A DNA stretch of 28,242 bases, taken from a virus. The stretch covers positions 1 to 28,242 of IMG/VR virus record IMGVR_UViG_3300009788_000257. One strand, written 5' to 3'. A program made the position numbers and the translations under genes. Each line of letters starts with the position of its first letter. Positions within the stretch are counted from its first letter, which is position 1. The notes beneath the pieces were generated by a model. The model was given only the letters and a program-made list of their open reading frames with translations, was not told the DNA's origin and did not search any database. Below are positions 10,503 to 28,242 of this stretch, one piece after another.

Positions 10503-10979
10503 CTAGTTTTCAAACTGCGCGCCGAGTTCTGGTCGCGACACGAGAGTTGCTGCAATACCACCAGCTTGCGCAGTTGTTGCAGCAGTTTCCATGCCCACAA
10601 CGATAAATCTGTCGTAATTCACTGCTGGGAACTCAAACATGGCCTGTGTTTCGTAGCGAGTTGAACCAGCAGCTTGAGTAATAGTCGCTGCGGCTGCGAT
10701 CAGCGTCAAGTCAGTCGTATCCGCAGGATCTTGCACGGTGTCTTCAACACCAATGTCAATCGCATGAGCCGTAACCGCATCGAGATCGTCATGCTCAATC
10801 AACAGCGACACGAAGCGATGCTGCGCTGGCAGCTTGACCAACCGGATAAGCAGAGTCGTGTCATCAACTTCCACGGCAGTCAACTCGTAATTCCCGCGTT
10901 GCGTCGTAGACTGTCCAGCTTGTGCCGATGCGACTGCCGGTCCAGCGTTTGAACCCATTACAGTTGTTACTGTGCCCAT
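10503..10979 (-). CDS. Decoration-like virion protein, paralogue 2 (158 aa)
   Basis: This is the second of two tandem paralogues directly downstream of the major capsid gene. Both share TQRGNYEL near residue 30, LLIRLVKLPAQHR at about 43-55, VEDTVQDPADTTD or LEDTVQDPADTTD, RYETQAM, VNYDRFI, and an identical C-terminus GGIAATLVSRPELGAQFEN. The LVKLPAxHRxVSLxxExDDLD pattern fits small beta-sandwich proteins made in high copy on phage heads. The start is ATG 10979 with a TAGGAAG SD. A head-decoration function is inferred from position, size and duplication; a second structural role for one copy is possible. Confidence 0.75.
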   Translation of the reverse strand: MGTVTTVMGSNAGPAVASAQAGQSTTQRGNYELTAVEVDDTTLLIRLVKLPAQHRFVSLLIEHDDLDAVTAHAIDIGVEDTVQDPADTTDLTLIAAAATITQAAGSTRYETQAMFEFPAVNYDRFIVVGMETAATTAQAGGIAATLVSRPELGAQFEN

Positions 10980-10991
10980 GTCAGCTTCCTA

Positions 10992-11465
10992 TTAGTTTTC
11001 GAATTGCGCGCCGAGTTCCGGTCGCGACACGAGAGTTGCTGCAATGCCACCAGCCGCACCGGTTCCAGCAGCAGTAGTGATGTCGATCGTGATGAACCGA
11101 TCGTAATTCACTACCGCAAGTTCCAGCATAGCCTGTGTTTCGTAGCGAGCCACTGCAGCTGCCTGCATGGTCACACCAGTAGCAACTAACGTCGCGTCAG
11201 TCGTATCCGCAGGATCTTGCACAGTGTCTTCAAGACCAATGTCAACCACAAGACCAGCAGCATCATCGAGATCGTCATTTTCCACGACGAGCGATACCAT
11301 GCGATGCTGCGCTGGCAGCTTCACCAGGCGGATCAACAGTGTGTCGTCCTCCGCTTGTGCTGCGAGCAACTCGTAGTTACCACGTTGGGTTACCGTCTGA
11401 CCAGCTTGGGCAGATGCAATCGAAGGACCCGCATTGGAACCCATTACAGAAGCTACAGTTGGCAT
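10992..11465 (-). CDS. Decoration-like virion protein, paralogue 1 (157 aa)
   Basis: This is the copy adjacent to the major capsid gene, 12 nt upstream of its paralogue in transcription order. It is colinear with the 158-aa protein along its full length. Differences concentrate in the middle (residues about 65-100) and around 125-138, and the last 20 residues are identical. The start is ATG 11465 with an AAGAGGAAAG SD. It contains no Cys, no signal peptide and no membrane segment. It is probably a head-decoration or capsid-stabilising protein by position and by the family-like LVKLPAQHR core. Confidence 0.75.
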   Translation of the reverse strand: MPTVASVMGSNAGPSIASAQAGQTVTQRGNYELLAAQAEDDTLLIRLVKLPAQHRMVSLVVENDDLDDAAGLVVDIGLEDTVQDPADTTDATLVATGVTMQAAAVARYETQAMLELAVVNYDRFITIDITTAAGTGAAGGIAATLVSRPELGAQFEN

Positions 11466-12927: not shown

Positions 12928-13974
12928 TCAAAACTCTCTGGAGTTGAGATATTCATCTGCTTTCGCTTTCGGCAATTTTGCTAATTCTGCCTCAAGTTCC
13001 ATCCCGTCCATTTTGTCCAATTGCGCGAACGGGTCATCTTTCTCTTCGATAATCGCAGCCTCAGGTAATGTAGCAAGTGTCTTCGGTGGTGGTTTCTGCG
13101 GCTTCTCCTCGTGCTCTTTTTCGATTTGCGCGGTCCTGGTAGCCTCCTCACTTTCAGCCCCTTCTTCAACAGGGACTTTCTTCACGTCCATATTGAACGC
13201 CTCGCGAACACCTTCAGCAGCTTTACGCAAGAACCATCGATATGGTTTACCTTGATTTTCTTCGTCAGCGTACAACTCTTCCAAGGCACCACGTAGCGCA
13301 CCATAAACAACCGGTTTCTTGAACTCATCGTTCTCTTCGATGAAACGTTCGACTTCCCAGTTCCAATGTTGATCAGAGATAAGTTCGTTGTTGCCCTTAA
13401 CGAATTCAACCTCTCGCTTTTGCGCCGTCAACTCTGCGAGATTTGTAGTCAACTTCCGGTTTTCTTTAGCGTGCGCGGCGTAATCGATCTCACCTTCGGC
13501 TAATTGATTATCGAGAGTTTCAATTGCTTCATTGGTGGATGTTAACTGCTCCTCCAAATCATCCGGTATTCCCCGCGCCTGCAACTGTGCACGAAACGAG
13601 TCAACTGCCACTGGTGGTGCAGACACGTTGTCATCAACTTTCTCCGGGTCTTTCTCCGGGTCTTTCTCCGGGTCTTTTTCGGGATCTTTTTCGGGATCTT
13701 TCTCCGGGTCTTTTTCTGGATCTTTTTCGGGATCTTTCTCCGGGTCCTTGTCAGGATCTTTCTCCGGGTCCTTTTCCGGGTCTTTTTCGGGATCTTTTTT
13801 TGGGTCGGCAACGACACCCGCTTTGTCTTTATCGGTCACCTGGGGAGGATCTACCGCATCCGACTCCGCAGAGGCATCGTTGCCGTCTGTTTCGCTTTCC
13901 TCAAGTGCAGCCCTTTCCTCGTCGGATAAACCTGCTGCGGCCATTGCATCATCTTTTTCTACGTGCTTCGTCAT
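12928..13974 (-). CDS. Probable capsid scaffolding protein with DPEK repeats (348 aa)
   Basis: The protein is highly charged with no Cys. Residues 1-56 are acidic, 57-112 are fourteen DP[ED/K]K tetrapeptides, about 125-190 form a helical coiled-coil-like region (LEEQLTSTNEAIETLDNQLAEGEIDYAAH), and about 195-270 carry WEVERFIEENDEF and YRWFLRKAAEGVREAF. The C-terminus is helical (MDGMELEAELAKLPKAKADEYLNSREF). A charged, helical protein between portal and major capsid genes is the usual place and style of a scaffold. Its AGGAGTG SD lies inside copy C of the 14-nt hairpin element, giving it the most direct potential for translational control. Confidence 0.8.
   Translation of the reverse strand: MTKHVEKDDAMAAAGLSDEERAALEESETDGNDASAESDAVDPPQVTDKDKAGVVADPKKDPEKDPEKDPEKDPDKDPEKDPEKDPEKDPEKDPEKDPEKDPEKDPEKDPEKVDDNVSAPPVAVDSFRAQLQARGIPDDLEEQLTSTNEAIETLDNQLAEGEIDYAAHAKENRKLTTNLAELTAQKREVEFVKGNNELISDQHWNWEVERFIEENDEFKKPVVYGALRGALEELYADEENQGKPYRWFLRKAAEGVREAFNMDVKKVPVEEGAESEEATRTAQIEKEHEEKPQKPPPKTLATLPEAAIIEEKDDPFAQLDKMDGMELEAELAKLPKAKADEYLNSREF
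13639..13806 (-). repeat. Fourteen 12-bp tandem repeats encoding DPEK
   Basis: Units are 12 bp without interruption (plus-strand forms such as tttctccgggtc and tttttcgggatc), encoding DPEK with one DPKK (first) and one DPDK. Third-position variants differ between units, so the array is not freshly amplified throughout. Length variation between relatives is expected. Confidence 0.95.
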
Positions 13975-16825: not shown

Positions 16826-18334
16826 TTACACGGTGCGCCAGTTGGTTTTTTTCTTCTTGCGCCTGCGCGCCTGACTTGGTGCTTTGTAGCCGACCGCGAA
16901 TTGTTCAAATGATTTGGCTCCATGAGATGCCCAGTCATGCAGTGGTTGGGACTTGAACGTACCCAGCTTCTCATCCCATTCTTTCCGATAGTGATCCAGA
17001 GCCTTAACAGTTTCTGTACAATTCCGCTGGTCAAACCAACAAGTTGGCAGGATCGATCGCACCGCATCGATACCGTCCATCTCCTCCTCGATGCGCGGCA
17101 CAACCCGTATAGGACGCAAACCCAGTTTAACCAGTGACTCACGTCGTGATATGCCGGTAGCCATTTCACGAACCTCAACATCATGCGGTAAAAAGTGCTG
17201 ACCGTACGTGTACGGTTTGCCCTGCAGGATCTTCGTGTAGTGACCGAGTGACTCACCACGATTGATGTATTCGTCTATAAACCGGTGCTCCATCCCGTAC
17301 CGTTGGTGGAAAATTATATGCGTGTCGTCAGACATACCAAGATCCCAGAATGTATTGACGGGCAGACGCGGATCATAGGGCACGTTGATGATGTGCTTCT
17401 GCTGCCGCAACCAGGTCATCTGCTGCTTGTAGTAAGCACCTTCGATACTTGCCCTGAACGCCTCATCTGGTGTGGACGGGTACTCACGAAGCATGTATTC
17501 ACCCTGCTCCATTTTCTTTTTCACGTACCACAGACGTTGCCCAAGACTGAGTTTCTGACCTATCTCCTGTTCAACATCATCGAAATATTCAAGATCATCA
17601 CGAGTGATAATGACCCTGTCGATCATCTCCTCAGGCATCGAGTACTGACTTTCTCGCCACCACGGAAAGAAATGAAACCTCCAATCAAGAACCGTTAAGG
17701 CAATACCGGAATGTTCGTTGTTTCTTGCTATGTCGCATATATCGAAGAAGTGACCGAACGATCCTTCTGCGGTTGATTCAATGGTGACGGACTGACCGGC
17801 CTGAACAGTGTTTAACGCACCGGTTCGAACCTCTGCAGCCTTCTCAGGATACTTCGCACACAGCTTGCCGTATTCGGAAATATGAAGATAGTTCAACGTA
17901 CCAGAACGCATCGAGGTGCCGACTCGGATCGAGGAGTCATTTGCAAAAAGATATTCGTTGGTTGTGTCCTGACGAGGATGCAGGAACGCTCTGATCTGAT
18001 CGGGAAGATGGTTGTACGGGAACTTTACTTTTGTTTCAAAAATTACCTTGGCGTCGTCCCTGGTGTGGGCGATTATTCCGCAACGTGTATTTGGGTAAAA
18101 GGCCGCATTATCCAGGAGCAGAATGTCTATGAACGTCGTCATCCCCAGCTGTCTCGCCTTCAGGATTACGTTCATGTACCAAAAGTTTTCTAGCAGTTCC
18201 GTCTGTGCCCAGTTGGGTTGAAAGAGGACCTCGTCTCCCGCCTTGTTCTGAATGCGATAGAGATTGTTGAGTCGCCACAACTGGTCCGTGAAGTGATCCG
18301 TGACCACTACTAACTGTTCTGTCGAGTCTGCCAA
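16826..18334 (-). CDS. terL: Terminase large subunit (502 aa)
   Basis: This is the DNA-packaging motor. The ATPase has a Walker-A-like KARQLGMTT (residues about 59-67), hydrophobic Walker-B-like LNYLHISE (about 147-154) and a coupling motif TIESTAEG (about 184-191). The nuclease domain includes FWDLGMSDDT (Asp near 331) and LHDWASHGAKSF (Asp near 467), as in TerL RNase-H-fold nucleases. I use TTG 18334 because AGGGAGG lies 8 nt upstream; the frame begins at a TTG at 18361. The C-terminus is basic (RRRKKKK). It overlaps the small terminase gene out of phase by about 227 nt if that ORF is used to its stop. Confidence 0.93.
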   Translation of the reverse strand: MADSTEQLVVVTDHFTDQLWRLNNLYRIQNKAGDEVLFQPNWAQTELLENFWYMNVILKARQLGMTTFIDILLLDNAAFYPNTRCGIIAHTRDDAKVIFETKVKFPYNHLPDQIRAFLHPRQDTTNEYLFANDSSIRVGTSMRSGTLNYLHISEYGKLCAKYPEKAAEVRTGALNTVQAGQSVTIESTAEGSFGHFFDICDIARNNEHSGIALTVLDWRFHFFPWWRESQYSMPEEMIDRVIITRDDLEYFDDVEQEIGQKLSLGQRLWYVKKKMEQGEYMLREYPSTPDEAFRASIEGAYYKQQMTWLRQQKHIINVPYDPRLPVNTFWDLGMSDDTHIIFHQRYGMEHRFIDEYINRGESLGHYTKILQGKPYTYGQHFLPHDVEVREMATGISRRESLVKLGLRPIRVVPRIEEEMDGIDAVRSILPTCWFDQRNCTETVKALDHYRKEWDEKLGTFKSQPLHDWASHGAKSFEQFAVGYKAPSQARRRKKKKTNWRTV

Positions 18335-18944
18335 TTGTCGATCCTCCCTTTGCCGCACCAATCATTTCCATTAGCTTGGCGACACCATCAGTATCAATCT
18401 TGTCCTGCTGGAAGTATCCGAGGATACGCGCAATAGAGTCCAGCGCACCTTTTTTATCGACAAATTTAATTCGGGTGGTATGACCGATAGCCTTACGTGC
18501 CTTGCCCCTGCCCTCGTATTCTGTGAACACATCGATCTGGGCTATTGCTTTACGCGCACCAATCGGAACTTCTTGAATGTGTCTGAGACTGCCAAAATTA
18601 TCGAATAAATCAGCCGGGTCCAGAAAAGCAATACGGCCCAACTCCCTCACGATCCTTTCCTGACCACATTCGGTGTTGCGCCGCATTGTCTTCCGGCGTC
18701 TATTCAGGTAGGCATTGATGTGCGGTTTTTTCATGAGATCGTACGTGCCGCGATCGACATTCTGCATAGACTTATGAGCATAGCCTGCGGCTATAAACGC
18801 CTTGCGTCTGTTTTGATCGGGATCTGCAAGTAAGTGGTCACAGTACCGGCGCTGTTTGGATGTCAAACCAAACTCGTCAGTACTTGGTGCTGACCTTCGG
18901 CGCGTTGCCACGCCCGTATTAGCTGGTTTCTGACTTGCACTCAA
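18108..18944 (-). CDS. terS: Terminase small subunit, with long out-of-phase 3' overlap (up to 278 aa)
   Basis: Residues about 25-75 carry the DNA-binding helix-turn-helix pattern of small terminases: LTSKQRRYCDHLLADPDQNRRKAFIAAGYAHKS, then PHINAYLNRRR. Residues 85-190 (ELGRIAFLDPADLFD, VFTEYEGRGKARKAIGHTTRIKFVDKKGALDSIARILGYF) fit the oligomerisation region. The start is TTG 18944 with AAGGA 9 nt upstream and no earlier ATG. From residue about 204 on, the sequence is low-complexity (LHGPVVATQQSLSHSEQGGRRGPLS) and overlaps terL, so I suspect the real protein is nearer 200 residues or the stop was lost by an indel. Which is true cannot be decided from this sequence. Confidence 0.8.
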   Translation of the reverse strand: MSASQKPANTGVATRRRSAPSTDEFGLTSKQRRYCDHLLADPDQNRRKAFIAAGYAHKSMQNVDRGTYDLMKKPHINAYLNRRRKTMRRNTECGQERIVRELGRIAFLDPADLFDNFGSLRHIQEVPIGARKAIAQIDVFTEYEGRGKARKAIGHTTRIKFVDKKGALDSIARILGYFQQDKIDTDGVAKLMEMIGAAKGGSTIGRLDRTVSSGHGSLHGPVVATQQSLSHSEQGGRRGPLSTQLGTDGTARKLLVHERNPEGETAGDDDVHRHSAPG

Positions 18945-26863: not shown

Positions 26864-27472
26864 TTACCCCTTTCGATACAACAGGAACTTGGACGCAAAA
26901 CTCGCGTCTTCGGTGCCGATGTTCTCGTCTTCACCGAAAGCGTCAGCGGGTTCGATGCGCCAACCCAATTTGATGACGAGGTGGTGGGTATCGCTCCATA
27001 TGTGCACGACCTTGAAACCGGCTTGCCAACCCTGCCATGCCAGATACCATGCCGTTTTAATATTGGCATCAATACCTCCGAGGTTGTGACGCCTAAGCAC
27101 TGTCGGCTCATAACGAAGCAATTCCAGGTCGGTCTTGTAGCGCACCAAGTCAGGATCAATATCCAGATCCAGTAACTCGAAACTTCTCAATCCATTGGCC
27201 GGGTTCCTGATGGCGTGATAGCGATACCAGGACCGGAAAGTCGTGCCATTTTTATCAACCCACCACTTCGGCAGAGACGACAGGAAAGTACTCTCGCCGC
27301 CCTTCCAGTCTTCTGGATTTGCCCATGGCCGGGTCCACCACGGCAGGAAGCTGTAATGCGTGTGTTTGTACCTCCACATCAGCGGCACCACGAACAAACC
27401 CGCAAAAGCAGTCGGTGCCTTGATAAGCAAAAATCCAATCCACAGCAGGATAAATACAGGTAATCTAATCAT
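26864..27472 (-). CDS. DUF7338-like membrane-anchored phage protein (202 aa)
   Basis: The N-terminal MIRLPVFILLWIGFLLIKAPTAFAGLFVVPL is a hydrophobic membrane segment. The next part, WRYKHTHYSFLPWWTRPWANPEDWKGG, then WYRYHAIRNPANGLRSFELLDLDID, matches the small phage family with a hydrophobic start and a W-rich region containing NPANGLR-type motif. The C-terminal half contains repeated aromatic strands (AWYLAWQGWQAGFKVVHIWSDTHHLVIKLGWRIEP). The ATG overlaps the preceding nuclease stop by 8 nt. Such proteins lie next to lysis or tail genes in many podoviruses; function is not established. Confidence 0.75.
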   Translation of the reverse strand: MIRLPVFILLWIGFLLIKAPTAFAGLFVVPLMWRYKHTHYSFLPWWTRPWANPEDWKGGESTFLSSLPKWWVDKNGTTFRSWYRYHAIRNPANGLRSFELLDLDIDPDLVRYKTDLELLRYEPTVLRRHNLGGIDANIKTAWYLAWQGWQAGFKVVHIWSDTHHLVIKLGWRIEPADAFGEDENIGTEDASFASKFLLYRKG

Positions 27473-27946
27473 GTCTGTTCTCCTTCAATAGCTTTTTTTT
27501 GAGGTCCCAGATTCTGAGCGCACCGAGTCGTGCCACCTTGTATTGATCGGCATCCGACATCTTCCGGGCATGGTTTGGCATGGGGTCTCTGATTCTTTTG
27601 CATCGCGTCCAGACGTTGTCGTTTTCCGGGTCCACGAGAATGATACCGGCTCGCTCCGGGATAAACTCGATGCAACGCTCCAGGTAAGTTGGTATGGCAA
27701 AGTACAGGTATTTTATTCGGTTGCTGCGGTGTCCGTGCGGCTTTTCCGCGTCCTTTTTATGTCGGCGCGAGTGACCTTAATTTCGATCTCGGTGCAGTAA
27801 CCTGCCTTCGACACCATGAGAAGATCGCACTCGTGCATGTTCATGCCCCAATGCACGTTTGGCACAATCAGGTTGGTTCTGTAATTAAAGAACCTGACAA
27901 GTGCGATCTCCATTTCTGGCGTGGTTATGTACACCTTTTTTTTCAC
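27465..27946 (-). CDS. MmcB-like PD-(D/E)XK nuclease, frameshifted at A5 run
   Basis: Frame 1 (GTG 27946; the frame is open to TTG 28009) gives KKKVYITTPEMEIALVRFFN, YRTNLIVPNVHWGMNMHECD, LLMVSKAGYCTEIEIKVTRA and then DIK. Acidic D in ECDLL and EIEIK form the PD-(D/E)XK core of MmcB-type nucleases. At 27754-27758 (A5 in mRNA sense), the continuation to KDAEKPHGHRSNRIKYLYFA, IPTYLERCIEFIPERAGIIL, then to LRIWDLKKKLLKENRHD lies in the -1 frame with no stop until 27465. Adding one A restores a single about 160-residue protein. I interpret this as one gene broken by a single-base deletion, a sequencing error or, less likely, a programmed shift. Confidence 0.7.
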
Positions 27947-28242
27947 TAGAGGACAGACGTGCCCTCGACGCCGCGAGCAATCCTGGCATTGGTTCGGTGG
28001 TGCAGCCAATGCAAGGCTTCTTCCAGCTTGGTGATGGCAAGCGCGTTTTCACGACAACTGTACTCACCACTTTGGAATCCCTGCAAGCGATCCAAAACGA
28101 TCGCGATAAGGTCTTCGTTGTGGCAACCGTTTGTCCCGGCTTCCTGGATGGGACCGTTCTGGAAACTTACCTCGACAAACACTTTGCCAGTCGCCTTGTC
28201 TTCGACAACGTACTCGTGGTTCGCGCCACCAGCACCAGGCTC
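27946..28242 (-). CDS. Tad1/Acb2-hairpin-like protein, candidate anti-defence nucleotide sponge (5' truncated)
   Basis: The gene runs off the window. The frame continues upstream of GTG 28182 as EPGAGGANHEYVVEDKATGK. The visible C-terminal part is FQNGPIQEAGTNGCHNEDLI, then AIVLDRLQGFQSGEYSCREN, then ALAITKLEEALHWLHHRTNA, then RIARGVEGTSVL. NGxxNEDxxxIxxDRL, CREN, KLEEALxWLxxRTxxR and RGVEGT fit the Tad1/Acb2-type hairpin family that captures immune signalling nucleotides (Tad1 binds the Thoeris signal). I assign this family by motif memory, not by search. It is first in the visible accessory block, before the nuclease. Confidence 0.6.
   Translation of the reverse strand, partial: EPGAGGANHEYVVEDKATGKVFVEVSFQNGPIQEAGTNGCHNEDLIAIVLDRLQGFQSGEYSCRENALAITKLEEALHWLHHRTNARIARGVEGTSVL

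Follow-up and report, generated by a model that had tools for sequence, protein, structure and literature searches.

The question raised by this locus is whether the last ORF of a 28,242-base virus record (the window) encodes a protein that captures bacterial immune signals, and if so, of which kind. The ORF is the last one on the minus strand, runs from 28242 to 27946 and is open at the contig end (Table 1). It had been proposed, from a reading of the letters alone, to encode a Tad1/Acb2-type anti-defence protein. All motifs quoted in support of that proposal are found in the ORF (NGCHNED, CREN, KLEEALHWLHHRT(NAR) and RGVEGT). The observation was confirmed, and the homology match is far beyond chance. 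The start codon lies outside the window. Intact relatives (L002, L006, L013 and L014) start roughly 18 to 25 residues further upstream, so the contig end removes the start codon together with the N-terminus; an estimated 20 to 30 residues are missing.

Table 1. Coordinates of tad1, its parts and the adjoining nuclease gene in the window.
Feature	Position	Strand	Extent and evidence
tad1, 5'-truncated	27946..28242	-	98 codons and stop codon TAG; homology searches, alignment and model
N-terminal beta-strand part, remainder	28156..28242	-	Residues 1-29 (GANHEY ... VSFQN); 16-sequence alignment and model strands
Alpha-hairpin	27973..28119	-	Residues 42-90 (H42-56, H64-90); alignment, model, PF24729 over residues 49-80
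MmcB-like nuclease gene (PHROG 2776 kin)	27465..27950	-	Flanks tad1 and is not part of the sponge; overlaps the tad1 stop codon

In a PHROG profile search, the window protein matched PHROG 2428 at E = 1.1e-34 over residues 6 to 96. A phmmer search against PDB chains found the Tad1 chains as a group at E = 6e-24 to 1e-18, with CmTad1 (8kbb) at 6.3e-24 and CbTad1 (7uav) at 7.9e-19. Among phage records, the top rank went to a protein annotated as Tad1 in Bacillus phage SBSphiJ7 (59% identity over residues 3 to 95, E = 3e-25). The similarity to these characterised Tad1 proteins (CmTad1, CbTad1 and SBSphiJ7 Tad1) is significant along the whole available length. A profile built from 16 relatives matched CbTad1 (3e-38) and CmTad1 (2e-36) end to end in the PDB, followed by gp184 (8y6v_I); no other PDB protein was found up to E = 10. 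The profile check suggested in the original prediction gave a split result: PHROG 2428 and the PDB Tad1 chains were strongly matched, and the Acb2/Tad1 hairpin model PF24729 scored 26.0 bits, 1 bit under its gathering cut-off of 27. Since the intact relative L006 also falls below the cut-off with 24 bits (SBSphiJ7 Tad1 scores 34.2), the sub-threshold score probably reflects the limits of the Pfam model more than it speaks against membership. Neither NCBIfam nor PADLOC contains a model matching the window protein.

The AlphaFold2 model has moderate confidence (pLDDT 74, pTM 0.54) and shows two strands (residues 9-14 and 21-27) ahead of two long helices. This order, beta-strands at the N-terminus and then a pair of long helices, is the Tad1 layout; part of the N-terminus is outside the window. 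Foldseek gave 20 matches with E ≤ 0.001, every one a chain of CbTad1 or CmTad1, and the following matches have E > 1. Global TM-scores against Tad1 are modest (0.52 to 0.59), and identity in the structural alignments is about 41% to CbTad1 and about 56% to CmTad1. VIA-align gave Z scores of 7.3 to 7.9 to CbTad1 and CmTad1 entries over the hairpin. Unrelated helical proteins follow at 6.6 and below. Taken alone these scores would be weak evidence, but with identities of 47 to 61% the result is firm.

The alpha-hairpin by itself is common to Tad1 and Acb2, and the window protein could in principle be an Acb2 sponge that acts on CBASS only. The two share the hairpin family PF24729, and the Acb2 protein Vs.4 of phage T4 is present in the structural match list. 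The Vs.4 entry (7uq2) has a VIA-align Z score of 5.8 with 8% identity, however, which is no better than that of unrelated helical proteins. Neither phmmer nor the 16-relative profile matched any Acb2 chain in the PDB up to E = 10. In addition, residues 1 to 30 align to the beta-strand part of Tad1, a part that Acb2 does not have (PMC12043709). We rejected Acb2 identity on the sequence evidence and the beta-strand N-terminal part, and consider it extremely improbable. The presence of that part narrows the original Tad1/Acb2-type assignment to Tad1, for which sequence and structure searches agree. It is strongly supported that the window protein is a Tad1, truncated yet otherwise well conserved, of a family that is already known and widespread.

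In the 16-sequence alignment, the invariant residues are Y11, F27, Q28, G30, P31, G39, F56, Q57, R64, E65, T71, E75, A76, W79, R83, R87 and G94, and N66 is nearly invariant. The hairpin keeps the conserved F56, R64, E65, N66, W79, R83 and R87. The window residues F56, N66, R83 and R87 align with CbTad1 F82, N92 and the helix arginines R109 and R113. We take CbTad1 F82 and N92 to be pocket residues that contact gcADPR.

The nuclease gene lies directly downstream of tad1 on the same strand, and its opening GTG overlaps the tad1 stop codon. The original prediction of a neighbouring nuclease holds in that the gene exists and is MmcB-like; its frame is broken, shifting by one base near 27757 in a poly-A run. 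A relative of the nuclease in L075 is a single frame across the equivalent point and has a weak score to the MmcB-like family PF06319. We considered a programmed -1 frameshift in this gene and thought it unlikely, because AUA-AAA-AGG is a poor slippery site and the L075 relative keeps a single frame. It is simpler to assume an error of sequencing or assembly in the A-run, or else a genuine mutation.

The broken frame in this next gene and the 5' end of tad1 beyond the contig could be read as signs that the Tad1 homolog is non-functional or repurposed, for example as a decayed gene or as a binder of another nucleotide. Against this reading, the frame stays open through all 98 codons, and the core residues are retained at positions where relatives with 46 to 69% identity are invariant. 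Loss or change of function appears very unlikely.

After the nuclease gene comes g202, which encodes a membrane protein (PHROG 2143); next are two proteins that gave no match, and then tailed-phage early and structural genes. The neighbours g268 and g319 (signal peptide-like start) have no defence match. It had been suggested that this accessory block could be an anti-defence island. PADLOC, whose library covers defence genes, matched neither tad1 nor any of six genes near it, and no counter-defence family was found among the tested neighbours in Pfam, PHROG or NCBIfam. Across the compared Tad1 loci, none of the immediate neighbours of tad1 was seen next to another Tad1 gene; the only genes that recur there are structural ones, such as terL and portal genes at low identity (e.g., in L078). 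The sole viral relative found for g202 is in L073, which has no Tad1 match. The island was rejected on these grounds: g202, g268 and g319 lack a defence match, the relative of g202 occurs in L073 without Tad1, and the immediate neighbours are not shared with other Tad1 loci. From the absence of defence matches and shared neighbours, Tad1 is therefore regarded here as a single accessory gene within the contig, without a demonstrated island.

Three other features of the contig were recorded on the minus strand. An acidic protein adjoining the capsid gene (12928-13974) carries about a dozen tandem DPEK repeats and is likely of the scaffold type. Downstream of the capsid gene, two adjacent near-alike proteins of 157 to 158 aa (10503-11465) apparently represent a tandem duplication. 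The ORF for the terminase small subunit (18108-18361) shares about 250 bases with the ORF for the large subunit; the C-terminus of the small subunit may have lost its frame there (a possible indel), or the large subunit may have a later start.

Tad1 is a hexamer made of three dimers, with a beta-sheet at the N-terminus and two helices at the C-terminus of the protein; it has six pockets for gcADPR or cyclic dinucleotides and two trimer-interface sites for cyclic trinucleotides, and it blocks Thoeris and CBASS by sequestering signals without degrading them (PMC12043709). Given the family membership, the conserved core residues and the predicted fold, the best explanation for the window ORF, and a very probable one, is a phage-encoded Tad1 that sponges bacterial nucleotide immune signals and blocks effector activation. 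By homology to the characterised proteins, the window protein would form a hexamer as well. During infection it would capture the nucleotide signals that bacterial immune enzymes produce, holding them without degradation; the ligands characterised for Tad1 are gcADPR of Thoeris TIR proteins and the cyclic di- and trinucleotides of CBASS. The effectors would then stay inactive and phage replication would be possible. One bacterial answer to such sponges is Panoptes, which is triggered by two of four Tad1 alleles (PMC12657218).

Tad1-related proteins were found in 66 viral loci and 126 phage records, and in 61 loci in genomes from many bacterial and some archaeal phyla. In the tree, the window Tad1 is nearest to L078 and L002 with a modest support of 82, the alignment having too few columns for firm placement. 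Nor does the tree single out one characterised Tad1 as the closest functional analog. The window Tad1, of a lineage with no characterised neighbour close by in the tree, may prefer another ligand, for example a signal new to Tad1, but we regard this as very unlikely. A separate clade (L020-L061; e.g., L027:4929-5246) consists of short hairpin proteins with the pattern NPAGG...WQNGPL...NGAFVE...CRENALAITKLEEALHW. Their N-terminus is unlike that of Tad1 and the branch support is 100. The clade is possibly another sponge subfamily.

A reading made without tools found a real counter-defence gene here. General annotation would miss such a gene, because the Pfam score is just under the cut-off and NCBIfam has no matching model. 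The result adds one more phage to the known Tad1 carriers and leaves the knowledge of the family unchanged.

Comparison with known sponges places the window protein as follows. Acb2 (T4 Vs.4, PaMx33) shares the PF24729 hairpin and the sponge principle; it differs in lacking the beta-strand N-terminal part, in having another pocket (PMC12043709) and in showing no sequence match to the window protein. CmTad1 (8kbb/8kbc/8kbd) and CbTad1 (7uav/7uaw/8smd/8kbe/8kbf) belong to the same family by sequence and model. CbTad1 has FQKGAR where the window protein has FQNGPI, and its positions F82, N92, R109 and R113 are kept. SBSphiJ7 Tad1 (OM982674.1, UPI13470.1) has a longer N-terminal part and is 142 aa in total, whereas the start of the window protein is cut off by the contig end; the two share the hairpin and the C-terminal RGVEGT(H/S) tail, and are 59% identical over residues 3 to 95.
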